Below are positions 12,856-37,814 of a stretch of 40,995 bases of DNA, in pieces. The stretch's first letter is position 1. Each line of letters begins with the position of its first letter. The translations under genes were made by a program, and so were the position numbers. The stretch comes from Pseudochrobactrum kiredjianiae. Its GTDB lineage: Bacteria; Pseudomonadota; Alphaproteobacteria; Rhizobiales; Rhizobiaceae. The stretch spans positions 1-40,995 of the forward strand of contig NZ_JAUCBM010000019.1 in the NCBI RefSeq assembly GCF_030362795.1, written 5' to 3'. The notes beneath the pieces are model-generated. The model saw nothing but the letters and a program-made list of their open reading frames with translations, searched no databases and had not been told where the DNA came from.

Positions 12856-14523
12856 CTAGAGCTTACTCCCGACGCGGGATAGCACAATCACCGGTAAAAT
12901 GCCGATTGCCACAATTGCCAGTGCGGCGAGAGAGGCTTCCTCATAAGTGCCGCGCGCGGCCTCACCGTAAAGGTGGGTTGCGAGCGTTTCAATATTGAGC
13001 GAGCGCAGCAATAGTGTGGCGGGCAGTTCTTTGACGCAATCGACAAAGACCAGCAGAGCCGCAGCGCTGAGTGCCGTTTTGGACAAAGGCAAATGGATGT
13101 GACGGAAGGTTCCGGTTGCTGTTTCACCTAATGTTCGAGATGCCTGATCATAGGTCACAGGAATACGGTTGAAACCTGCATCAATACTACCTGCAGAGAT
13201 GGCTAAGAAGCGTACCAGATAGGCATAGATCAGCGCAGCGCCGGAGCCAAGCAGGAACAGGCTGACCGATACATTAAACCATGACATGGCGATCTGGCTG
13301 ATAAAGCGATCCGCTGCGCCGGTTACAATGAGCACACCAATCGCGATCACCGTTCCGGGGGCTGCATAGCCCATGGTGGAGAAACGGAAGAACCATTGCG
13401 AGGCATTGCCCGGACGCAACCGGATGGCATAGGCAACGATCAGGCCGATGGTGAGCGTGACGATGGTCGCGATGGAAGCCAGCATCACCGTATTGATGAT
13501 TTCATCGTAAAGGCGTGGCGAGATACCGGCAAAGCGTACGCGTTTCCATGCTTCCGTTGCCAGATAAATGGCAGGGAAAACGAAGCCAAGCAGAATTGGT
13601 GTGAGCCCGAGCAAAAACAGAATGCCGCCGCGTGCAGCACTGACTTTGTGCGGTGTGAATTGCTGACTGCGCTTGGCACTGGATGAAAAACGCTGTTTGC
13701 GCCGTGCCCAGCGCTCCAGCGAGACCAGACAAACAACAATCAGCAGCAACGCTAATGCAATCTGTGCTGCGCCGGGAAGATCAGAGCGCGTAATCCATGT
13801 TGTATAGATGGAAACGGTCAGTGTACGGATGCCAAGAAATTCTGCCGCACCGATATCATTCAGTGTTTCCATCAATGCGAGGCTGATACCGACTGCAATG
13901 GCGGGGCGTGCCATAGGTAGCGCCACACGCCAGAAAATTGCATTGCGCGTAACGCCCAAAGTGCGCGCGGCGTCGATCAATGACGAGGATTGTGTCAGAA
14001 ACATCGCCCGTGTGGGGATGTAAACATAGGGATAAAGCACAAAGCCGAGCAGCAGAATACAGCCGGTCATGGAGCGGATATCCGGCAGGCGGAACTCGCG
14101 CGGGCTTGTATAGCCTAGCAAATCTCTTAATGCGCTTTGCACGGGGCCGATAGGATGCAGAATATCCAGATAGGCATAAGCAATAATATAGGTTGGCACT
14201 GCGAGCGGCAGTAAAAGCGCCCATTCCAGCAGCCTGCGTCCGCGAAAATCATAGGCTGTTACTAGCCATGCAGCGGATGTGCCGACGAGTGCAACAATGA
14301 TGCCAGCGCCGGTCAGGAGGATGATCGTATCAACAAAAGCAACGGGTAATGTGGTGGCCAACAGGTGTGACCAGAGACCTTCAGAACCTTGTGCGGCTTG
14401 TAAAGCGAGTGCCAATACGGGCAGCAAGACCAGAATTGCACTGATAGCTGAAAGGCAGAGCCATAAAGATCCGGCACGGAACAACCGGCCTTTAGAATAT
14501 GCTGGCATGGTAAGGCTCGCCAT
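12856..14523 (-). CDS. fbpB: Iron(III) ABC transporter permease (FbpB-type, fused two-domain)
   Basis: A 555-residue inner-membrane permease made of two homologous six-helix modules, as in FbpB/SfuB. Each has an EAA-like loop that docks with the ATPase: ARTLGVTRNAIFWRVALPMA in the first module and SRTLGETATGTFRHIHLPLS in the second. It would move Fe3+ delivered by the periplasmic binding protein encoded just upstream (14661-15683). The gap to that gene contains a terminator-like hairpin, so fbpB may be expressed mainly by read-through. The ATG at 14523 has only a weak ribosome-binding site; a second ATG lies five codons later. The stop abuts lysR in a convergent arrangement. Confidence 0.9.
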   Translation of the reverse strand: MASLTMPAYSKGRLFRAGSLWLCLSAISAILVLLPVLALALQAAQGSEGLWSHLLATTLPVAFVDTIILLTGAGIIVALVGTSAAWLVTAYDFRGRRLLEWALLLPLAVPTYIIAYAYLDILHPIGPVQSALRDLLGYTSPREFRLPDIRSMTGCILLLGFVLYPYVYIPTRAMFLTQSSSLIDAARTLGVTRNAIFWRVALPMARPAIAVGISLALMETLNDIGAAEFLGIRTLTVSIYTTWITRSDLPGAAQIALALLLIVVCLVSLERWARRKQRFSSSAKRSQQFTPHKVSAARGGILFLLGLTPILLGFVFPAIYLATEAWKRVRFAGISPRLYDEIINTVMLASIATIVTLTIGLIVAYAIRLRPGNASQWFFRFSTMGYAAPGTVIAIGVLIVTGAADRFISQIAMSWFNVSVSLFLLGSGAALIYAYLVRFLAISAGSIDAGFNRIPVTYDQASRTLGETATGTFRHIHLPLSKTALSAAALLVFVDCVKELPATLLLRSLNIETLATHLYGEAARGTYEEASLAALAIVAIGILPVIVLSRVGSKL

Positions 14524-14618
14524 TATCCGGAGCGGTTCTGACAGAATGAAACGAAGACCGCTCAGTCGTTTTTATCAAGCAGCGCATCGAATCGATGGAA
14601 TATCTGCTTTAGTACAAA

Positions 14619-14655
14619 AAACGCCGCTCTTCATCCTGAATGAAAAGCGGCGTTT
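14619..14655 (-). terminator. Rho-independent terminator/attenuator after fbpA
   Basis: AAACGCCGCT (14619-14628) pairs perfectly with AGCGGCGTTT (14646-14655) around a 17-base loop. Read on the minus strand, the hairpin is followed by a T-run, immediately downstream of the fbpA stop. It would end most fbpA transcripts and let a fraction continue into fbpB, the usual way to keep binding protein in excess over permease. Confidence 0.75.
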
Positions 14656-14660
14656 GTTTG

Positions 14661-15683
14661 TTAGTTGTCGAAGCCGACTTTGTCGACCAACTCGCTGGCC
14701 TGTTTGCGATGGCTTACGATTTCTGTGAGCGGTGTCTTGTCGATGGTCAGCTCACCAAAGGATTTGACGATCGGATCAAGTGGCGCACCCGGCTTTACCG
14801 GATATTCGAAATTGGCTTCCGCATAGATCTTCTGAGCTTCGTCGGACACCAGATATTCGAGCAGTTTCACAGCAGCGTCTTTATTCTTGGCATGCTTGGC
14901 AAGCGAAGCGCCGCTGATATTGACCTGTGTGCCGCCTTCTTTGAAGGTCGGGAGGATCACTTTGATGCTTTCCGCCCATTTAACCTGTTCTTCGCCGCCC
15001 TTACCGGAGCGCATCAAACCGACATAGTAGGAATTGGCTACAGCGATATCGCAAATGCCGCCTGCAATGTCTTTGGCGCCGTCACGGTCACCGCCGGCAG
15101 CTTTACGCGCCAGATTGTCTTTAACGCCTTTGAGCCATTCTTCAGTTTTTTCCGCACCGTAATGGGCAATATAATCAGCGATCAGTGCTGTATTATACGG
15201 ATGCTGACCGGCACGGATACAGATTTTGCCTTTCCATTTCGGATCGGACAGATCTTCATAATTCAGCGAAGAAACATCGAGATCTTTGGCTGCATAAACA
15301 ACGCGGGCGCGCATTGAAAGAGCAAACCATTCGCCCTTGGCATCACGCAGCTGTGCCGGAATAGCATCTTCCAGAACTTTGGAAGAGACAGGCTGGGTCA
15401 GGCCCTTTTCTGTCAGGTCGATCAGATTACCCGCATCAACGGTCATCAGAATATCGGCCGGAGAGTTTTCGCCCTCAGTTGCAACACGTTCAGCCAAACC
15501 ATCTTTCAGGAATACAGTATTCACCGTAATACCGCTGGAAGCCTTGAACGCATCAAGCAAAGGCTGGATCAGACCCGGTTCGCGCGTTGTGTAGATGTTG
15601 ACTTCTTCAGCACTGGCAGCGCCGGCGAGCATGGTTCCGAAAGCTAAGGCGAGGCCAGCTTGCATGGTACGGGTTCTGGTCAT
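14661..15683 (-). CDS. fbpA: Iron(III) ABC transporter periplasmic substrate-binding protein
   Basis: A class II periplasmic binding protein of about 340 residues. The ATG at 15683 is chosen because AGGAAAG lies 7 bases upstream; the longer frame starting at 15740 has no such site. A clear signal peptide (MTRTRTMQAGLALAFGTMLA, cleavage near GAASA-EE) is followed by VNIYTTREPGLIQPLLDAF, the typical start of FbpA-like proteins. The dityrosine iron-binding motif is present in CDIAVANSYYVGLM, and the C-terminal YPVKPGAPLDPIVKSFG matches the ferric-binding group. It captures Fe3+ for the FbpB/FbpC importer. Its own promoter probably lies in the 216-base gap before it; on the minus strand TTGACC and AATAGT are 18 bases apart there, a weak candidate. 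Confidence 0.93.
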   Translation of the reverse strand: MTRTRTMQAGLALAFGTMLAGAASAEEVNIYTTREPGLIQPLLDAFKASSGITVNTVFLKDGLAERVATEGENSPADILMTVDAGNLIDLTEKGLTQPVSSKVLEDAIPAQLRDAKGEWFALSMRARVVYAAKDLDVSSLNYEDLSDPKWKGKICIRAGQHPYNTALIADYIAHYGAEKTEEWLKGVKDNLARKAAGGDRDGAKDIAGGICDIAVANSYYVGLMRSGKGGEEQVKWAESIKVILPTFKEGGTQVNISGASLAKHAKNKDAAVKLLEYLVSDEAQKIYAEANFEYPVKPGAPLDPIVKSFGELTIDKTPLTEIVSHRKQASELVDKVGFDN

Positions 15684-15789
15684 CGTAGATCTTTCCTGAG
15701 TGAAAGTTGCAGGGGCAGAAAACATGATTAACGAAGTCAACTATTGGCGAAAAATCTGTGTGCGGTCAAGTCTTTGTGATCAGACTATG

Positions 15790-15834
15790 GCATGTCTCCC
15801 AAAAGTGGACACCGGTTTTGGGGCAAAGACATGC
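15790..15834. repeat. Palindromic intergenic repeat, GCATGTC type
   Basis: GCATGTCT (15790-15797) and AGACATGC (15827-15834) bracket a second inverted pair, CCCAAAA and TTTTGGG, forming one imperfect 45-base palindrome. It resembles short palindromic repeats that I recall as abundant between genes in Hyphomicrobiales. A diverged relative is present at 37999-38046. It sits between fbpC and fbpA. Confidence 0.6.
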
Positions 15835-15847
15835 GTAGACACAAAAA

Positions 15848-15893
15848 GATAGAGCATTTCGAGTGTTTCACCTTAAATGTGAAATGCTCTATC
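15848..15893 (-). terminator. TAGAGCAT-type palindromic repeat acting as fbpC terminator
   Basis: GATAGAGCATTTC (15848-15860) pairs over 13 bases with GAAATGCTCTATC (15881-15893); inside it is a second pair, TTTCAC and GTGAAA. On the minus strand it begins 6 bases after the fbpC stop and is followed by TTTTTG, so it has the form of a rho-independent terminator. The TAGAGCAT...ATGCTCTA ends and the inner CCTTAAA are shared with the element at 37946-37996. Confidence 0.6.
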
Positions 15894-15899
15894 GTAGGA

Positions 15900-16985
15900 T
15901 CAGTCACGAAAGAAAAAGGCCTTATCAGTATCAAGACGCAGACGTATTGCACGAATTTCCGCAGGCAGACGTAAAGTTGTGCGGACACGTAAAGGAGCTG
16001 ATTGGTCATCGGTATGAACCACCAGTTCCTCGGATTCACCTAAGAAGTGCCGCTCTGTGACAGCCCCCTTGATGGTATTGTGCAGGTCGCCATCATCGCT
16101 CACCGGATAAATATGGCTCGGGCGTAAATACATATGCACGGCACCATTTGTATTCTGCTGGTCTGTGAGCTCAAAACTACCAAGAGCGGTTTCAATCCGG
16201 CCGTCACGGATCGTGCCGGAAAGCGCATTGAAATTACAGAAAAAATCTGCCGTATAACGACCATTGGGCTGGTCATAAATTTCATGCGCCGTGCCCTGCT
16301 GAATAATACGCCCTGAGCGCATCAGCACGATGCGGTCACCGGCAGATAAAGCCTCTTCCGCATCATGGGTGACGATAATAACTGTCGTGCCTAATTTGCG
16401 CAGCAATGCGATTGTTTCACTGCGGACTTTTTGGCGTAATCCCTGATCCAGATTGGAAAAAGGTTCGTCCATCAGCAGGATATCCGGCGTTGGCGCAAGG
16501 GCACGTGCCAGTGCTACGCGTTGTTGCTCGCCACCTGACAGCATATGCGGATAACGCGCTGCCATATGGGACAGGCCAACCAGCTCCAGCAATTCATCAG
16601 CACGTGCTGAGGCGGTGGCGCGTGGCGTTTTACGCAGGCCGAATAAGATATTCTGTTTAACAGTCAGATGCGGGAATAGCGCATAATTTTGAAACACCAC
16701 GCCGACGCGGCGTTGCTCGGGTTCAATAAAATGGGTGCCGTTGACAATAGGCTGACCGTTGATGAAAACCGACCCACTATCCGGCGTATCAATACCGGAA
16801 ATCATTTTGAGCAAAGTGGTTTTACCGCAGCCGGAATGGCCGACAAGACAAATGATTTCACCCGAGGCGACAGAAAGCGAAATGTCTTGCAATGCGGTCG
16901 TGTCGTCAAAATGTCGGCTGACATTTGACACTTGCAGGGCTATTTTTCGGTTTTCAGTCTGTTCAGGCGTTATATTTGAATGCAC
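15900..16985 (-). CDS. fbpC: Iron(III) ABC transporter ATP-binding protein
   Basis: A 361-residue ATPase. Motifs in order: Walker A GHSGCGKTT (residues ~49-57), Q-loop VVFQNYALFPHLTV, signature LSGGEQQRVALARAL, Walker B ILLMDEPFSNLD, and H-loop VIIVTHDAEEAL. A C-terminal TOBE-like regulatory region follows (YLRPSHIYPV onward). The FALFPH-type sequence and the neighbouring FbpA and FbpB genes make ferric iron the likely cargo; spermidine or other CUT1-type cargoes share the same architecture but do not fit the context. It is the first gene of the group, giving the unusual order C-A-B. I see no convincing Fur, Irr or RirA box upstream by eye. Confidence 0.9.
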   Translation of the reverse strand: MHSNITPEQTENRKIALQVSNVSRHFDDTTALQDISLSVASGEIICLVGHSGCGKTTLLKMISGIDTPDSGSVFINGQPIVNGTHFIEPEQRRVGVVFQNYALFPHLTVKQNILFGLRKTPRATASARADELLELVGLSHMAARYPHMLSGGEQQRVALARALAPTPDILLMDEPFSNLDQGLRQKVRSETIALLRKLGTTVIIVTHDAEEALSAGDRIVLMRSGRIIQQGTAHEIYDQPNGRYTADFFCNFNALSGTIRDGRIETALGSFELTDQQNTNGAVHMYLRPSHIYPVSDDGDLHNTIKGAVTERHFLGESEELVVHTDDQSAPLRVRTTLRLPAEIRAIRLRLDTDKAFFFRD

Positions 16986-29031: not shown

Positions 29032-29385
29032 ATGAAGGCTCTGAGCGAAGATCAGCGGTTTCAGCTCCGCGATCTGATGCCGGCGATATTATTGCTGGCG
29101 CTGTTGCTTGGCAGCATTGCGGTGGCCGTGTTGCGGCCGACCGGCAAAGATGATCAGTATATTGTTATGGTTACACCATGGCGCAGTCTCAGCTCTGTGG
29201 TCAGTTCCATTCAGGCTGCTGAAGGCGCGATTGTCTCCATCAACGCATCCAATAATGTGATTACCGTTTATTCCGAGAATAAAGAATTCCCAAGCAAGCT
29301 TTACAGTGCCGGAGTATGGCTGGTTTTTGAACCGCTGCTGCCGGGCGGCTGTTATGGCATTCAGGAGCGGACAACAGCAGCATGA
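29032..29385 (+). CDS. Small single-pass membrane protein of a signalling operon
   Basis: A 117-residue protein with a short cytoplasmic start ([16 protein letters not shown]), one membrane segment ([18 protein letters not shown]) and a ~75-residue extracytoplasmic part ([27 protein letters not shown]). I do not recognise the family. AGGA lies 9 bases before the ATG. Its stop overlaps the kinase start as ATGA, so the two are translationally coupled, which suggests a partner or accessory sensor for the kinase. The same coupling links the kinase to the REC-GGDEF gene. Confidence 0.75.
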
Positions 29386-32231
29386 TCCTAGAACTCGACG
29401 ACCTCCGCAGCCGGTTCAGCCGGTTTTTGCTGATTTTATTCTGGCTGCATGTCCCGCTGCTGGCAATTGTTGCCTATGGCACAGGCCATTCGCCTCTCTG
29501 GGCGGCTCTGGCTGGTGTCGCATTGGCGGGATGCTATCATTTGTCATGGCTGCGTTCAGGCATTGCGCCGGTTACCCGCTATATTTCTGGTGTTGCTCTG
29601 ATGGGGCAGCCTGCTTTGCTGCTTTTTCTGATGAGCGGGCGTCAGTGGCAGATGGATATGCATATGTATTTCTTTGCCATGCTGGCGCTGACAGTCGCGT
29701 GGTGTGATCGCCGTGCCGTCTTGTTTGCCGCTGCCGCTGTGGCCGCGCATCACCTGACGCTGGATTACCTGATGCCTGCCGCTGTGTTTCCGGAAGGCGG
29801 CGATCTGCTGCGCGTTTTGCTCCATGCAGGAATTGTTGCCTTTCAGGCTGCTGTTCTGGTGTGGTTTGGCGATATGCTGGTTGAATGTTTCAACCGTATT
29901 AGCGCCATGCGCGATGAGATTATTGCCAAAAATGAAACACTTGAACTGCGCACATTGGAAGCGGAAGGGGCAAGTAAATCCAAGAGCATGTTCCTTGCTA
30001 ATATGAGTCATGAAATTCGCACGCCGATGAATGCCATTCTGGGCTTTTGTCATCTGGTGCTGCGTACAGATCTCGATTTGCGCCAAAAAGAATATGTCTC
30101 GAAAATCAGCAATGCGAGTACAGCTCTGTTGCGTCTGATTAATGACATTCTTGATTTCTCCAAGAATGAAGCAGGCAAGCTCTCCCTTGAGGCGCGCCCG
30201 TTTAATCTGCGCTCATCTTTGCAGAGCCAGCTTAATCTCGCAGCGATTAACGCCGAGAATAAAGGCGTGACTATCGAGACGGTTATTCATGAAGATGTTC
30301 CGCCGGTGCTGGTCGGGGATGAACTGCGTCTCAATCAGATTTTGCTCAATCTTGTTAGCAATGCCGTCAAATTCAGCGAAAAAGGCACTGTCACCGTATC
30401 TGTCGATACGATTGAGAGACGAGATGATGATATTGCCCTGCGCATTTCTGTGCGCGATCGTGGTATTGGTATGGCACCGGAACAGCAGGCGCTGTTGTTC
30501 AACTCCTTTACGCAGGCCGATAGCTCTATGACGCGCCGTTTCGGCGGTACTGGTCTTGGACTGGTCATCAGCAAGCAGATTGTTGAGCAGATGGGCGGCA
30601 CGATCGCTGTAGAGAGCACGCAAGGCGAAGGCAGCTTGTTCACTTTCACGGTCAATATGGCTGTAGGTGAAATGCAGCAGGAACCGGTACGCATTGCATC
30701 AGAAAAAATCGCTGGCCTGCGGGTTCTGGCGGCGGATGATAATCCGGCCTCTCGTGAAATTTTGCAGGATGTTTTCAGCTCTTGGGGCGTAACCATTGAT
30801 CTGGTTGCTTCCGGCGAGGAAGTTCTCGGCGCGCTTGAAAGTGCCTGTCTTGCTGAGAAACCTTATGATCTGGTGGTGCTGGACTGGAAAATGCCGGGCA
30901 TGGATGGTCTGGAGACCGTGCAACGCATGCATCGTCACGAGAAGCTGACATCGCTGCCTTATGTCGTGATGGTGACGGCTTATGGTAATGACGAGTTCCG
31001 TTCAGAATCTGAGCGTGCGGGTATTGCAGCCTTCCTGACTAAGCCGATTATGCCGGATGTTTTGTTCGACACAGTGACAGAATTGTTCTCGCAAGATGTT
31101 GCGCCGGATGCACCGCATGCGGAGATCGGGCAGGCTATTCCGATGGTTGCAGAGCATTTGCGTGGCCTGACACTGCTTCTCGCTGAGGACAGCATGATCA
31201 ACCGTGAAATCGCTGTTGAATTGTTGCAGGATGCGGGTCTGAAGGTTGATGTTGCCGAGAATGGCCGGATCGCCTGTGATCTGGCACTGGCCAAGCCTCT
31301 TATCTATGACGGCGTGCTGATGGATATTCAGATGCCGGAAATGGACGGCATTGAGGCCACACGCCTGATCCGGCAAACATGGTCTTCCGAGCAATTGCCG
31401 ATTATTGCGATGACAGCTCATGCTTATGAAGAAGAACGGCAGAAATGTTTTGCTGCCGGTATGGACGATCATATTGCCAAGCCGGTTGATCCATTCCTGT
31501 TGGTGCGCACACTGAACCGCTGGCTCAAACCCCGTCAGAAAATTGTCGAGGTTCAGGCCGTATTAAGTGAAGTGCCAGCGGCAGAGCCAAAACCTGATTT
31601 GCCTAACAGCCTGCCGCCGTTTGATCTGGCAAAAGCCCTGCCGCGCATGAACGGAAAAACTGCATTACTGCGTAAGCTGATTATAGATTTTGGACAGAGA
31701 TTTGCGGGCGCGACCGAGGAGTTGCACGAGCTGATGAGCCGTGGCGCATTGGAAGATGCACGACGCAATGCACATACGCTGAAAGGTGTTGCCGGTTCTC
31801 TGGAACTTGCAGAGATTTATGCTCATGCGGCCAAAACGGAAGCGGCTTTGTCACAGGGCGATGTCGTTGCCGCGAATAGTCTGATTGCTGAGTTGGAGCA
31901 ACTGCTAAAACCTGCGATTCAGGCTGCACAGAGCCTTGTAACTACGCCAGAAACTGCTAATACCGCCGCACCGGCAGCATCTGCTGATCCGGTTGATGTT
32001 CAGGCAGAGATTTCTGCTTTTCGCGGGCTCTTAGAGCGCCGCAGCCTGAAGGCACGCAGCAGTTTTGAAAAATTGGCGACGACAATCGGTTTGACACCTG
32101 CCGCTATGCAGGATCATCCGGTGAAACTCGCTCTTGATAGTCTTGACTACAATCGTGCGCTGACATTGCTGGATGAAGAATTTGCGGACAACCCGCAGTC
32201 TTCAACCAATAATGTGCGCATCGGAGAATGA
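29382..32231 (+). CDS. Hybrid sensor histidine kinase with two receiver domains and HPt
   Basis: A 949-residue membrane kinase. Residues ~10-175 form a multi-helix membrane sensor of a type also seen in some alphaproteobacterial chemotaxis receptors ([40 protein letters not shown]). HisKA follows with the phospho-acceptor His210 in [15 protein letters not shown], then HATPase_c ([43 protein letters not shown]), receiver 1 with Asp501 ([12 protein letters not shown]), receiver 2 with Asp648 ([12 protein letters not shown]), and an HPt domain with His798 ([15 protein letters not shown]). All phosphorelay residues are present. It overlaps both neighbours by ATGA junctions. The REC-GGDEF protein downstream is the likely final phosphate acceptor. 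The stimulus is unknown. Confidence 0.92.
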
Positions 32232-32233
32232 TT

Positions 32234-33172
32234 ATGGCAAACCGGGCAGTCATCCTTATTGTTGATGATGAAATCTCAAATATCGAGATTATGAGTGCAG
32301 TTCTTGAGGATGATTATGAGGTATGTTTTGCGACATCCGGTGAGGAAGCTCTGAAGATTGCGCAAACCGTATTGCCGGATCTCATTCTGCTGGATGTGCT
32401 GATGCCCGGAATTGACGGTTATGAAGTGTGCCAACGTCTCAAGAAAGACCGGATGCTTGCGGATATTCCGGTGATCTTCACCACGGGTCTGAACGATCAG
32501 GACGCGGAAGTGCGCGGCCTGTCTGCCGGTGCGATTGATTATGTGACCAAGCCAATTCAGCCGGTTATTCTGCTGGCACGGGTTGCCAATCATGTGGAGC
32601 TGAAGCGCTTGCGCGATCAGCTGGCGCAGATGGCGGTCACGGATGCACTCACGGGTTTAAGCAATCGCCGCCATCTGGAGCAGACACTGGCGACAGAAAC
32701 CGCAAAGCTTTCCCGTACAGGTGAATGGCTTTCGGTGATTATGGTCGATATCGATTTCTTCAAGCTGTTTAATGACACATTCGGCCATCCGGCGGGTGAC
32801 CGGTGTCTGGCTATGGTTGCCGCAGCGCTGACCAGAGCCGTGCATCTGGCCACCGATCTGACTGCGCGTTATGGCGGTGAGGAGTTTGTCTGCGTACTTC
32901 CGGGGCGTGACCATGAAGCCGCCGCTCTGGTTGCCAAGGAAATTCAGGAACAAGTCAGTTCACTCAGAATCCCGCATCCTGAATCGGCTGTGGGGCCTTG
33001 CGTGACCGTTAGTATTGGTGTGGCTTCAGCCTGTTGCCTGCCGGATATGTCACCGTCTCAATGGATTGCCCATGCAGACCGCCAGCTTTATTTGAGCAAA
33101 CGCGCGGGTCGCAATGAGATTTTCAGCACCGTTTTCCACGAACAGCAAATTGGTGTCACAGGCGATTCATAA
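32234..33172 (+). CDS. Response regulator with GGDEF domain (diguanylate cyclase)
   Basis: A 312-residue cytoplasmic protein with an N-terminal receiver (LIVDDEISNIEIMS; phospho-acceptor Asp in LILLDVLMPGIDGYEVC; Lys in YVTKPIQP) and a C-terminal GGDEF domain (TDALTGLSNRRHL; RYGGEEFVCVLPGRD; VTVSIGVASA) expected to make cyclic di-GMP when phosphorylated. The GGEEF active motif is intact. The inhibitory I-site that normally reads RxxD before it is changed here to LATD, so product inhibition is probably lost. The ATG at 32234 follows GGAG at 7 bases; an upstream ATG at 32228 overlaps the kinase stop. It has one receiver, unlike PleD with two. Confidence 0.92.
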   Translation: MANRAVILIVDDEISNIEIMSAVLEDDYEVCFATSGEEALKIAQTVLPDLILLDVLMPGIDGYEVCQRLKKDRMLADIPVIFTTGLNDQDAEVRGLSAGAIDYVTKPIQPVILLARVANHVELKRLRDQLAQMAVTDALTGLSNRRHLEQTLATETAKLSRTGEWLSVIMVDIDFFKLFNDTFGHPAGDRCLAMVAAALTRAVHLATDLTARYGGEEFVCVLPGRDHEAAALVAKEIQEQVSSLRIPHPESAVGPCVTVSIGVASACCLPDMSPSQWIAHADRQLYLSKRAGRNEIFSTVFHEQQIGVTGDS

Positions 33173-33183
33173 GTGAAGTATGG

Positions 33184-33215
33184 TGACCGGCTGTTCTCAG
33201 GAACCGTGCCGGTCA
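33184..33215. terminator. Possible terminator hairpin between convergent genes
   Basis: TGACCGGC (33184-33191) pairs perfectly with GCCGGTCA (33208-33215) across 16 bases. It spans the gap between the convergent REC-GGDEF and DeoR genes and includes the last DeoR codons. No T-run follows in either direction, so intrinsic termination would be weak. Confidence 0.35.
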
Positions 33216-34015
33216 TCTGTCTCGCATAGATGCAATTGCAGGTTCAGTGCCTGTATTTTATCTAGAATATGTGATGCAGGTGCTTTGTCGGTAATGATAG
33301 CATCAACACTATCCAGTCCGCCGAGCTTTACCAAAGCACGTTTGCCGAATTTGCTGCTATCAACGGCCAGTAATTTGTGTCTGGACTGATCGAGTGCTTT
33401 GGAAACTGCCGCCACTTCGGTGCGGTCATCATCACAAAGGTCACCGTCATCATCAACGCCACTAACCGAAATTACGGCGTAGTCGAATTTAAACCGGCTG
33501 ATGAAGTCCGGTGTATCTTCCTGAAAAATACCACCATCGACGGCGCGTACAAAGCCACCCGGAATAGCCAGTGCGAAGTCCGAATTTTCGCTGATCAGCG
33601 ATGCCACGCGCAGACTATAGGTGACTATTCGCAAGCCTTGACGGTTCTTGAGCAGTGCGGCTGCAATCGCCTCGCAAGTCGTGCCGGTATCAATAAAGAT
33701 TGTCGTGTTATCCGGAATTGTCTCTGCCACAAAAGCCGCGATGGCTTGTTTTTCTACCGCCTGATCGAGGCGGCGCTGGCGATACGTGCCGACATCCATC
33801 GGCGCGGCAATGGTTGCGCCACCGTGAATACGACGGACTTTGCCGGTGGTTTCGAGCGCCATAATATCCCGCCGTGCAGTCTGCATGGTGACAGAGCAAA
33901 GATGGGCGATTTCTTCAAGAGAAATATAGTGATTTTGTTCGAGATATTGCAGCAGAAACGCCTGACGATTGTCTTTTTTATTGCCGCCAGTTGATATTAC
34001 GTCGTCAAATCGCAT
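33197..34015 (-). CDS. DeoR/GlpR-family transcriptional repressor
   Basis: A 272-residue repressor. The N-terminal DeoR HTH reads FLLQYLEQNHYISLEEIAHL, then CSVTMQTARRDIMALETTGK and VRRIHGGA, and the C-terminal sugar-phosphate sensor domain has TIFIDTGTTCEAIAAAL and the KLLAVDSSKFGKRALVKLG tail typical of DeoR/GlpR proteins. ATG 34015 is preferred because AGAGGG lies six bases upstream; a GTG at 34033 would add six residues. It is divergent from the autotransporter gene, and two near-identical direct repeats in the shared promoter region are candidate operators. Its ligand is probably a phosphorylated sugar or polyol, as for the family. Confidence 0.9.
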   Translation of the reverse strand: MRFDDVISTGGNKKDNRQAFLLQYLEQNHYISLEEIAHLCSVTMQTARRDIMALETTGKVRRIHGGATIAAPMDVGTYRQRRLDQAVEKQAIAAFVAETIPDNTTIFIDTGTTCEAIAAALLKNRQGLRIVTYSLRVASLISENSDFALAIPGGFVRAVDGGIFQEDTPDFISRFKFDYAVISVSGVDDDGDLCDDDRTEVAAVSKALDQSRHKLLAVDSSKFGKRALVKLGGLDSVDAIITDKAPASHILDKIQALNLQLHLCETDDRHGS

Positions 34016-34100
34016 AGCGCGCCCTCTGTTCACATATTATTTCAAATAAAAAAATTTAAGCGTCAAGTGAATGATTTGATACACTCACAGGCTTTGTATA

Positions 34101-34141
34101 AAAACTGACATATACCTCGTCTAATGTACGAAAAGTGACAT
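34101..34141. promoter_or_regulatory. Direct repeats in the deoR/autotransporter promoter region
   Basis: AAAACTGACAT (34101-34111) and AAAAGTGACAT (34131-34141) differ at one base and their starts are exactly 30 bases apart, about three helical turns. They lie 35-75 bases before the autotransporter start. A weak promoter, TTGATA with TATAAA 15 bases later, lies directly upstream. DeoR-family proteins often bind repeated sites, so these are candidate operators. Confidence 0.45.
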
Positions 34142-34175
34142 TTGTTGTCTCAGCTCTTACTATCAGGATGATGTT

Positions 34176-37100
34176 ATGAAAAAGCAGCGGTCAGGCGCAG
34201 GACAGAAACGTAATTTGGGAGCAGGGGTGGCAGGCGCATTGTTGCTCGCGGCTCTGGGCACCCATGCACAGGCGGAAGAGGCAAAAGATAAGAGTTTCTC
34301 ACTGACCGTGATGGGCTTCAATATCTGGAATAACAACGTTAATTCCAAAATGTGGGATGCCGAGGCGAAAAAAAATGGCCAGCTGATTTATAATCAGACG
34401 ATGAAGGACCTGTTGCTCGGTGTTGCGCCTGATGTGCTGGTCTTACCGGAACTATATAACAACAGCGGCAAAAAGCTGGGCGATAAGAGCGTTGTTGACG
34501 CTCATGTGCAAAACACGCTGGATTTGTTGAATGCTAATCCTGACAAGCTCGGCAATTACGAGAAAATCAAAGATAATGATGACCGCGAAGGCAGCGGCAT
34601 GGTGATATCTGCCGGTCAGTCTGACTATCTCGGCGCAAATACAATTCGTATGAAGCCGGGCAACGGATTTCCGGATACAGTCATCACCGGGCGTCATTTC
34701 AATTATTATGACGAGCCCACCAATCGTATCAAACAGGCCAAAGAAGCCAATACGCTTGCGCAATCAACGGCCATTCCGACTATCCTTGTCGGTGATCTTA
34801 ATGCCGGAGATGTTTCCGAGCGTGGGTTGCTGAGCGTGGACGCGCAATTGCGTCTGATGAAGCAGGCTACAGGCAATAAACTATATAGCGACTTGTCTGC
34901 GGAATATCTTGAACTTGCAGATAAAACCAAATGGCGCGCGATCATTCAGGACGCGCATAAGGGGGTAAATATTGATACGCTTTCCTGGAACCAATGGGGT
35001 ACTGCACTGGAAAAAGCTTACAAAGCAGGCAAAGATATTGGTCTTGTTGATGAGACATATCCGGTAAAAAACAATCTGCCGGTGACGATGAATATTCTGA
35101 AGCAGCAGCATCAGTTGATTCAGTTAGACCGCAACCGCGAGCAATTTAACCCAAGTCAGGTCGGCGATGAACGCGCGACATGGACCAGTGATGGCGAAGA
35201 ATCCACCAATACTTGGGCAAGTTGGGATCGTGTGAATATTGATCATATTCTGGTGTCTCGCCCGTTTGCTAAATGGATTGAGATTGTTGATAACGGCAAA
35301 TGGTCAGGCACGCTTTCCAAGCCTGCGCTGTTGCCAAATGGCAATTCACTGTCTGATCATGATCCTATTGCGCAGGATTTGCGCTGGATCGGGCCAAAGC
35401 TGGAGACTTATAAAGACGGTGATGTGGAAAAGACCCGCATTGTCTGGGGCGCGGATGCTTCCGGTTTTGAAGCCAAGGGCAAAGAATTCTATCTGACCCG
35501 TAACAATAATCGCAATGATACCTATCTCGGGCAGATTGCGGATGAGAACGGCAATCCGATCCTGAAAGATCTGACGCAGGAAGAAAAACAGACACTGCTC
35601 GACTGCAAAACAACGGATGATCGTTTTGCGCAGGCTGTGAAGGATTATTGTATTGATAATCACGAGTTTATCGGCCAGACGCTGGTGACAGATGGCGGTA
35701 CGATTATCGTTGATGAAGATGCCGCTTTAGGCACTGCAAAAGCCGATCTTTATCTGGCTGATGGCGGGTTGAAGATTGCCGGACAGGCAATGAATGCACT
35801 GGACCGCAAACTTATTCTGAATGGTACTGGGCGCATTGATGTTGCTGATGCACAGAATGAACTACTGGTTAAGCAGGAGATCAGCGGCAGCGGTGGTTTG
35901 GTTAAACAGGGTGAGGGTACGCTTGTTCTGGGGCAGGCAAACAGCCATCAGGGCGGTACATTTGTAGAAAAGGGCATTTTAAGAGCAGATGTTGCCGGTG
36001 CTCTGGTTGATAACACAACGCTTGTTGTGAATGGCGGTAAGCTTGATCTCAATGGTCATGACCTGAAGGCATCTTCCCTGTCCGGTAAAGGCGGCAGTCT
36101 GGATTTGAATTCTGCTGCGCTGGAAATCAATCAGACACTGAATACCCGCTTTGACGGAACGATCGATGGTCAGGGTGATCTGACGAAGAACGGCACCGGT
36201 ATTTTGGTGCTGAATGGCAAAAACAGCTATCAAGGCACGACCACAGTCAATGGCGGTGGTTTGATCGTTGGTGATGCAGATCATAGGGATGCATCAGTAA
36301 GCGGTATTATCAAAGTCAGTAATGGCGCCTTCCTTGCCGGTTCAGGTATGCTGGGCGGTATTCATGTTGCTGCGGGTAGCGTTTTGGCTCCGGGCAACTC
36401 AATCGGAACGCTTAAAGCCTCCGGTGATCTGGTGATGGAAGCGGGCTCTTTGTATGAGGCAGAGATTAATCCGGACGGTACTTCGGATCTCATTCAGGTT
36501 GGTGCTGCGGCCATAATTGATGGTGCCAATGTCCATGTGGAAAAAGCAACCGGCAGCTACAAAGCCAATACCCGTTATACAATTCTGACTGCAGATGGCG
36601 GGATTACCGGTACTTTTGCAGATATGAGCCAGAACAAGCCGTTTATTGATCTGAATCTCGTTTATGATCCGAAAACGGTTTATCTGGATGCTTTGCGTAA
36701 CAGCACAAGTTTTGCCTCTGTTGCACAGACCGAAAACCAGCAGGCTGTCGCCAGTGCTGCTGAAGGGCTTGGCATCGGTAATGCCGTTTATGATGCTATT
36801 GCCGGACAGGATAGTGATGCAAATGCCCGTGTAGCATTTGATATGCTGTCAGGTGAAGTACATGCGTCTTCAAAAACCGCTCTGATCAACACAAGCAGTG
36901 ATCTGCGTAATGCCGCACAGGATCGTCTTCGCTCTGCCTTTGGTGATATCAATGCGCAAAAGGGCGCACAGGTTGTCTCGGCAAACGATGCGCCGGCTGC
37001 TCTTTGGGTGCAGAGTTTTGGTACTTGGACTGAGAACTCCTCAAACGGGAATGCTGCAAAACTCAGCCAGACAACAGGTGGTATTTTTGCCGGTTATGAT

Positions 37101-37814
37101 GCCGAGGTAGCAGAAAATCTGCGTCTTGGTGCTCTTGCCGGTTATAGCCGCACCAGCTTTGATGTTGATGATCGTGCTTCATCGGGTGAGAGCGACAATT
37201 ATCATCTGGGTCTTTATGGCGGATCTCACTGGGGTAATACAGCGCTGAGCGGTGGTATTGCCTATAGCTGGCATTCGGTTGATACCAGCCGTTCGGTTTT
37301 CTTCCCTGATTTCTCTGAAAAGCTGACTGCTGATTATAATGCAGGCACAGTTCAGGCCTTTGGTGAGTTGAGCCATAAGTTGAAAACTAGCAATGCTGTT
37401 TTTGAACCATTTGCCAATCTGGCTTATGTATCGCTGAAGACGGATGGCTTTACTGAAACCGGTGGTCAGGCTGCTCTGACAATCGACAGGGACAGAATGA
37501 GCACGGTTTTCACGACTTTGGGTATTCGCGGGGCTACAGAAATGATGTTCGGTAATGTTAAGACCGAGCTGAACGGTACGCTGGGCTGGCAACATGCCTT
37601 TAATGATGTGGACTCTGTCACTCGTGCATCTTTTAGCAATGGCTCTGCCTTTGATATTTCCGGTGTTCCTGTTGCTAAGGACACGGCATTGGTGCAAGCC
37701 GGTTTCGATATTAAAGCCAGTGAAACAGCAACATTCGGTATCAGCTATCGCGGCCAGTTTGGCTCAGGTTTCCAGAGCAATTCTGTCAACGCCAAGCTGG
37801 GTATCAAATTCTGA
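34176..37814 (+). CDS. Autotransporter with endonuclease/exonuclease/phosphatase-like passenger
   Basis: A 1212-residue type Va autotransporter. Signal peptide: a basic start, then GAGVAGALLLAALGTHAQA. Residues ~42-405 form an EEP (DNase I/sphingomyelinase-like) domain with the expected metal and catalytic residues visible: Asn49 (MGFNIWN), Glu92 (LVLPELY), His174 (TGRHFNYYD), Asp207 and Asn209 (LVGDLNAGD), Asp356 (RVNIDHILVS) and Asp394/His395 (SLSDHDPIA). Residues ~565-700 hold two autotransporter-associated (PATR) repeats (SGSGGLVKQGEGTLVLGQ; GQGDLTKNGTGILVLNG), followed by VLAPGNSIGTL and a C-terminal barrel (~943-1212) ending in LGIKF. AGGA precedes the ATG. It should display or release a phosphodiesterase, nuclease or phospholipase at the cell surface; the substrate is unknown. 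A DeoR regulator is divergent; a strong terminator follows. Confidence 0.9.
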   Translation: MKKQRSGAGQKRNLGAGVAGALLLAALGTHAQAEEAKDKSFSLTVMGFNIWNNNVNSKMWDAEAKKNGQLIYNQTMKDLLLGVAPDVLVLPELYNNSGKKLGDKSVVDAHVQNTLDLLNANPDKLGNYEKIKDNDDREGSGMVISAGQSDYLGANTIRMKPGNGFPDTVITGRHFNYYDEPTNRIKQAKEANTLAQSTAIPTILVGDLNAGDVSERGLLSVDAQLRLMKQATGNKLYSDLSAEYLELADKTKWRAIIQDAHKGVNIDTLSWNQWGTALEKAYKAGKDIGLVDETYPVKNNLPVTMNILKQQHQLIQLDRNREQFNPSQVGDERATWTSDGEESTNTWASWDRVNIDHILVSRPFAKWIEIVDNGKWSGTLSKPALLPNGNSLSDHDPIAQDLRWIGPKLETYKDGDVEKTRIVWGADASGFEAKGKEFYLTRNNNRNDTYLGQIADENGNPILKDLTQEEKQTLLDCKTTDDRFAQAVKDYCIDNHEFIGQTLVTDGGTIIVDEDAALGTAKADLYLADGGLKIAGQAMNALDRKLILNGTGRIDVADAQNELLVKQEISGSGGLVKQGEGTLVLGQANSHQGGTFVEKGILRADVAGALVDNTTLVVNGGKLDLNGHDLKASSLSGKGGSLDLNSAALEINQTLNTRFDGTIDGQGDLTKNGTGILVLNGKNSYQGTTTVNGGGLIVGDADHRDASVSGIIKVSNGAFLAGSGMLGGIHVAAGSVLAPGNSIGTLKASGDLVMEAGSLYEAEINPDGTSDLIQVGAAAIIDGANVHVEKATGSYKANTRYTILTADGGITGTFADMSQNKPFIDLNLVYDPKTVYLDALRNSTSFASVAQTENQQAVASAAEGLGIGNAVYDAIAGQDSDANARVAFDMLSGEVHASSKTALINTSSDLRNAAQDRLRSAFGDINAQKGAQVVSANDAPAALWVQSFGTWTENSSNGNAAKLSQTTGGIFAGYDAEVAENLRLGALAGYSRTSFDVDDRASSGESDNYHLGLYGGSHWGNTALSGGIAYSWHSVDTSRSVFFPDFSEKLTADYNAGTVQAFGELSHKLKTSNAVFEPFANLAYVSLKTDGFTETGGQAALTIDRDRMSTVFTTLGIRGATEMMFGNVKTELNGTLGWQHAFNDVDSVTRASFSNGSAFDISGVPVAKDTALVQAGFDIKASETATFGISYRGQFGSGFQSNSVNAKLGIKF

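Follow-up and report, generated by a model that had tools for sequence, protein, structure and literature searches.

The window analysed here is a stretch of 40,995 nucleotides from Pseudochrobactrum kiredjianiae (contig NZ_JAUCBM010000019.1), and our subject is one of its genes, which codes for a predicted autotransporter with an enzymatic passenger. With a probability of roughly 0.58, we read the passenger as a surface phosphoesterase of the EEP (endonuclease/exonuclease/phosphatase) superfamily that feeds an organophosphate-uptake regulon under a GlpR-like repressor. This reading draws on the domains, the conserved catalytic residues, the EEP fold, the linkage to a repressor, a conserved box, and one link to an importer that is seen by box and neighbourhood together. 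New here are a close relative of the repressor beside the EEP gene at 18 of the 21 loci, a palindromic box before the gene in all 21, the same box before an importer operon in two closely related Martelella plasmids, and a homologue with a VPLPA-CTERM-like tail in place of the barrel.

The sequence supports the protein being a type Va autotransporter with an N-terminal, catalytically complete and metal-dependent EEP phosphoesterase as passenger. Its parts are:

34176..37814, + strand: EEP autotransporter gene, product of 1212 amino acids (open reading frame translation and Pfam)
34176..34274, + strand: signal-peptide-like N-terminus, residues 1-33 (AQA, then EE), read by eye from the translation
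34293..35390, + strand: EEP catalytic domain, residues ~40-405, with N49, E92, H174, D207, N209, D356, D394 and H395 (PF03372, residues, fold)
35391..35795, + strand: family-specific domain, residues ~406-540 (borders by eye), Cys477 and Cys492 invariant (alignment)
35898..35984, + strand: PATR repeat 1, residues 575-603 (PF12951, TIGR02601)
36180..36266, + strand: PATR repeat 2, residues ~669-697 (second Pfam PATR stretch, position estimated from the alignment)
37002..37748, + strand: autotransporter beta-barrel, residues 943-1191, the last residue of the chain being Phe (PF03797, TIGR01414)

The C-terminal barrel, by which type Va is recognised, matches PF03797 at 242 bits, and the PATR beta-helix stalk, common in this type and not obligatory, is represented by two stretches found with Pfam and NCBIfam. 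For the passenger the domain evidence is closer to the threshold: PF03372 scores 24.7 bits on the full protein against a cut-off of 24.5, and 27.9 bits on the passenger alone. However, all 12 members of the family alignment A1 match PF03372 at E<=1 (best E 1.4e-12), and the eight residues listed above are invariant in 18 of 18 aligned sequences, some of which are only ~35% identical. The EEP assignment is therefore marginal for the single sequence but firm for the family. The set of Asn, Glu, His, Asp-x-Asn, Asp and Asp-His, taken here as the catalytic and metal residues that define EEP enzymes, is complete in the passenger. In the six other EEP proteins found in the same genome, Glu, GD-x-N, Asp and SDH are invariant throughout. 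An earlier annotation made from the letters alone (the first-pass annotation) had described an autotransporter with an EEP passenger and had named these eight residues; every residue is where it was said to be, PF03372 does exceed its curated cut-off, and domains, fold and conservation bear out the architecture. A surface location and enzymatic activity of the passenger would follow.

Also invariant in the alignment of 18 sequences are Asp212, Glu215, Arg216, Glu293, Cys477 and Cys492. The two cysteines lie in the family-specific domain, for which Pfam gives no match, and may possibly form a disulphide. In two Pseudochrobactrum relatives (L019 and L020) the protein is ~90 residues shorter; the gap falls in the repeat stalk, and the length of the EEP domain is unchanged.

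The predicted structure of the EEP part has the EEP fold, and the list of its fold neighbours includes TDP2, ExoIII and DNase I (pdb chains ranked by Foldseek and realigned by VIA-align); the model is weak (pLDDT 56.9) and its last third is untrustworthy. A model of 500 passenger residues, with a pLDDT of 50.9, was left out of the fold comparison. Searched as a single sequence against solved structures, the EEP part had no match up to E 10; a profile search returned six weak matches, to TDP2, ExoIII and one unrelated protein, the best at E 0.17. In profile-profile comparison with the six other EEP proteins of the genome only the first 36 columns were aligned, at a probability of 93% (85% against two of them).

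PF03372 is the domain common to the EEP superfamily, which includes DNase I, ExoIII, TDP2, bacterial sphingomyelinase and the mannosyl-6-phosphatase Bt3783. Compared with these, the autotransporter adds a domain of its own after the EEP part, and a barrel; we place its passenger in the superfamily, without a subfamily. The spacing between the Asn of the DxN motif and the Asp of the ID motif is 147 residues, against 72 in the ExoIII-like protein of the same genome (L003). Neither a phage collection nor PADLOC gave a match to the EEP autotransporter.

Upstream of the gene lie the elements that suggest its regulation:

33197..34033, - strand: DeoR/GlpR-type repressor gene, 278 amino acids, divergent and directly upstream (PF00455, PF08220; PRK10906, 217 bits)
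34093..34112, no strand: operator-like site 1 (TTTGTATAAAAACTGACATA), a degenerate copy that lies 30 bp before site 2 and differs from AATGT/ACATT at 3 of the ten fixed bases (conserved in 7 aligned loci)
34123..34142, no strand: operator-like site 2, palindrome AATGT-N10-ACATT within the 142-bp gap between the divergent genes (pattern scans)

GlpR (PRK10906) is the best NCBIfam model for the repressor, yet the score of 217.2 bits is under the equivalog cut-off of 331. Since a different protein of the same genome reaches 287 bits on this model, the neighbouring repressor is probably not GlpR itself but a paralogue of it. The loci in which it adjoins the EEP gene include all eight of the Pseudochrobactrum/Brucella type, and it is missing in three (L023, L027, L038). 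It is divergent and upstream in most loci and downstream and co-directional in four (L026, L035, L036, L039), which argues against a simple inherited gene order. Further, repressor orthologues of at least 55% identity are present in 5/5 EEP-positive genomes of the order samples vs 1/292 EEP-negative ones (Fisher p = 3e-10, or 2e-8 after dropping the genome of the window). One genome (G222) has the EEP gene with no repressor beside it, yet carries the repressor elsewhere.

In seven Pseudochrobactrum-type loci the intergenic region contains two conserved TGTANNAAAANTGACAT-like copies, 30 bp apart, and across lineages the consensus of such copies is the palindrome AAATGT-N10-ACATTT. When at most one mismatch over the ten fixed bases is allowed, all 19 scored loci have at least one upstream site, with 26 sites in 10.45 kb of upstream sequence vs 5 in 305 kb elsewhere. 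Two loci (L037, L038) were left unscored, having Ala for Ser in the protein motif that sets the frame; each shows two upstream sites in the other scan. Over 17 loci there are 29 sites at <=1 mismatch, against a mean of 6.6 over 10 Markov shuffles. These loci include close relatives and are not independent, so that a Poisson estimate of the enrichment comes out too significant; nonetheless, the sites are found in every lineage examined.

Within the genome of the window, exact TGTANNAAAANTGACAT matches are limited to the two sites before the EEP gene. At <=2 mismatches there are 29 places vs 34 for a reversed control, so the weak matches are noise. The repressor presumably binds the palindromic box, whose ATGT-N10-ACAT frame is shared by the GlpR operators of E. 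coli. The tandem upstream repeats were also compared by eye with a Pho box, which would mean control by PhoB; the cross-lineage palindrome looks more like a DeoR-type operator.

The link to uptake comes from Martelella. On two related plasmids, one from Martelella lutilitoris (L028) and one from Martelella sp. AD-3 (L134), an exact box starts 50 bp before an operon of a substrate-binding protein (SBP), an ATPase, a permease and a HAD hydrolase, and importer, HAD gene, repressor and EEP gene are contiguous. These two boxes belong to the five sites in the 305 kb outside the upstream regions. As the importer and HAD proteins of the two loci are 93-99.7% identical, the two links count as one event. 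The genome of the window holds an orthologue of the SBP, 73% identical to that of Martelella, and the best copy of the box away from the EEP gene lies ~400 bp upstream of it; a box upstream of the SBP orthologue is found in 3/6 Pseudochrobactrum genomes searched (G002 left out).

Two genomes without the EEP gene (G170 and G197) carry repressors of 47-48% identity directly before orthologues of SBP, ATPase and permease (81/69/76% and 82/68/76% identity, respectively). In the repressor tree these branch beside the EEP-linked clade, apart from the paralogues of the genome. Pairs and tree suggest that a repressor-importer pair is ancestral and that the surface enzyme may have been added later. The window itself contains a second importer of the PhnSTU/AfuABC superfamily (12856-16985, - strand; permease, SBP, ATPase), distant from the linked one, with 26% identity between the SBPs.

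The best solved relative of the linked SBP is AfuA (4r72; E 1.8e-42, 149 bits). According to the available passages of its description, AfuA binds phosphate via Ser37 and Thr150 and sugar via His205, Asp206 and Glu229, with His205 and Asp206 essential for sugar binding (PMC4546632). Relative to AfuABC of Actinobacillus and Citrobacter, the linked SBPs retain the residues aligned to Thr150 and Glu229 (numbering matched by hand), while the position of Ser37 is Asn in one (L104) and Thr in the other four. The His205/Asp206 pair is replaced by Leu or Met and by Arg in 5/5 aligned SBP orthologues. The safe statement is that the linked importer would take up an organophosphate or a phosphonate. A glycerophosphoinositol importer was also considered, and the literature search gave no paper on it.

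The following mechanism would connect these elements. After Sec export, insertion of the barrel and translocation of the passenger, the EEP enzyme would stand on the cell surface atop a short PATR beta-helix stalk and cleave a phosphodiester outside the cell, or else a bulky phosphomonoester. The AfuABC/PhnS2-like ABC transporter would import the small phosphorylated product, which the HAD hydrolase of the Martelella operon could dephosphorylate. The adjacent GlpR-like repressor of the DeoR family would bind the palindromic boxes before the EEP gene and would probably be released from them by a small phosphorylated metabolite inside the cell. Both the direction of regulation and the class of substrate are inferred.

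A number of observations weigh against this reading. Among the loci scanned, the two related Martelella ones are alone in having a close importer next to the EEP gene, and two Ensifer loci have a distant relative of it (SBP 26%, permease 28%, ATPase 53%). Three of the six Pseudochrobactrum genomes have no box before the SBP orthologue, and in the other three it is ~400 bp upstream. The exact AATGT-N10-ACATT pattern is no commoner genome-wide than its reversed control (6 vs 5), so the single site upstream of the SBP could be due to chance. At <=1 mismatch no box is found at the repressor-importer loci of G170 and G197 (L147, L148), which have looser GlpR-like sites only; the repressor loci of G174 and G222 (L145, L146) have neither a box nor a close relative of the importer. 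G174 is also the sole EEP-negative genome of the order samples with a repressor orthologue above the 55% threshold (62% identity). With His205/Asp206 replaced, glucose 6-phosphate is an improbable ligand for the importer, and the structure model of the EEP part is, as described above, weak.

The first-pass annotation had proposed degradation of extracellular DNA or host lipids, or phosphate scavenging. Because of the gene context the last is favoured, in the broader form of organophosphate scavenging that a DeoR/GlpR-type repressor controls; DNA and host lipid have no specific finding in their favour and none that counts decisively against them. A surface DNase that breaks down DNA outside the cell, in biofilm or soil, as a source of nucleotides or phosphate would agree with TDP2, ExoIII and DNase I as listed fold neighbours, and the classical DeoR of E. 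coli responds to a sugar phosphate derived from DNA; we still regard this as unlikely. The same low likelihood applies to a surface phospholipase C or sphingomyelinase that frees a phosphorylated head group from the lipids of other organisms or from recycled membrane lipid: sphingomyelinases gave no sequence match in the profile search of solved structures, which yielded the TDP2, ExoIII and unrelated matches given above, and no lipid gene recurs among the neighbours with annotation or Pfam results, most other loci being unannotated.

Slightly less probable again is phosphonate scavenging, where the enzyme would free 2-aminoethylphosphonate from phosphonolipids or phosphonoglycans for uptake by the PhnS2-like importer. 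The top NCBIfam models of the importer are indeed phnS2, PhnT2 and PhnU2, and the second-best model of the HAD protein is a PhnX-like hydrolase. However, the three importer proteins are all under the curated cut-offs (339/392.75, 440.8/457.7 and 523.3/593.25 bits), the HAD protein misses its own by a wide margin (49.2/218.9), and DeoR-family sensors are not known as the usual regulators of phosphonate use. Finally, the passenger could be an adhesin on an inactive EEP scaffold, as adhesins form, outside the enzyme groups, most of the characterised autotransporters in the survey passages (PMC9289746). Such a scaffold would not require all catalytic and metal residues to be invariant in 18/18 sequences at identities down to ~35%, which makes this the most improbable of the four. 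Under the preferred reading, a surface phosphoesterase in an organophosphate regulon, the repressor and importer links replace the idea of a nuclease or lipase with no evident purpose at the surface by a metabolic hypothesis, and it can be tested because the binding protein of the importer can serve to fish for the product of the enzyme.

The EEP autotransporter is found in 6/6 other Pseudochrobactrum genomes (one of them incomplete, with the gene on two contigs) vs 0/34 from other genera in one sample. The order sample has the EEP protein in 4/296 other genomes and the class sample in 1/384; the phylum sample has it in 1/397, a genome counted before, plus six short EEP frames (280-329 amino acids) with weak matches. 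The samples overlap. Among plasmids, 15/72,556 records have a relative at E 1e-5, eight of them from Ensifer and three from Martelella. This patchy occurrence suggests horizontal spread or frequent loss. The closest named relatives come from Pseudochrobactrum asaccharolyticum, with 95% over the passenger, and at a greater distance from Brucella rhizosphaerae (67%), which agrees with a Pseudochrobactrum origin of the window; some relatives are labelled "autotransporter domain-containing protein" or "endonuclease/exonuclease/phosphatase family protein" in the databases.

In a homologue from Qingshengfaniella (L026, Rhodobacterales) the barrel is missing, and the EEP domain, the ~135-residue domain and a PATR repeat are all present. 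The C-terminus of this homologue consists of VPLPA, a hydrophobic stretch and an Arg-rich tail, and TIGR03370 (VPLPA-CTERM) matches the extreme C-terminus at 21.5 bits, against a cut-off of 25.35 (E 1.7e-4). It therefore seems that the enzyme has a different anchor there, and this apparent swap of barrel and sorting tail would make the passenger a clear case from nature of a single enzyme that comes with either of two surface anchors. More tentatively, and somewhat short of an even chance in our estimate, the surface EEP phosphoesterase (mostly an autotransporter, with a VPLPA-CTERM-type tail in Qingshengfaniella), a dedicated organophosphate ABC importer and the HAD phosphatase would make up a previously undescribed module in one GlpR-like regulon, a phosphodiester counterpart of surface polysaccharide utilisation. 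On this reading the enzyme and its regulator would apparently have spread jointly between orders of Alphaproteobacteria.

The survey passages name as enzymatic passengers proteases, esterases/lipases, sialidase, aminopeptidase and the acid phosphatase MapA, and as a phosphatase/hydrolase group phosphatidic phosphatase, tyrosine phosphatase and glycoside hydrolase domains (PMC3419190, PMC9289746, PMC5767081). MapA of Moraxella catarrhalis is likewise a phosphate-ester hydrolase on an autotransporter; it is set apart from the EEP autotransporter by its description as an acid phosphatase, with no EEP domain mentioned in those passages (PMC3419190, PMC9289746). Phosphatase autotransporters are thus known, and EEP ones are absent from the survey passages: "nuclease" and "endonuclease" do not occur in the three surveys, nor "exonuclease" in the two where it was looked for, and no EEP passenger is described there or in the passages available from PMC4546632 and PMC5551000. 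In the latter, "autotransporter" and "Exo_endo_phos" co-occur on different proteins. Among the publications listed by a literature search, whose coverage excludes most subscription journals, none deals with an EEP autotransporter. An EEP passenger would add a metal-dependent phosphoesterase class to the handful of enzymatic autotransporter activities in the survey passages.

Some database records and neighbouring genes should also be mentioned. A contig titled Bacillus subtilis SK6B4 (L017, JAHREI010000005.1) carries a 95%-identical EEP autotransporter with the gene order of Pseudochrobactrum, and the record is mislabelled or contaminated. CP070278.1 (Dysgonomonadaceae bacterium zrk40, 246,192 bp) has the same match as NZ_CP066788.1 (Martelella lutilitoris, L028; 246,197 bp) and is probably that plasmid, wrongly named. 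In Martelella mediterranea (L027) a second, very large autotransporter gene follows directly after the EEP autotransporter, from 10475. A 2667-residue open frame spans the whole of another stretch (L108, G000:C8:52000-60000) and by eye resembles an autotransporter repeat region. In the window, 29382-33172 (+ strand) codes for a hybrid histidine kinase that combines two receiver-domain stretches with an Hpt domain, followed by a response regulator with GGDEF.

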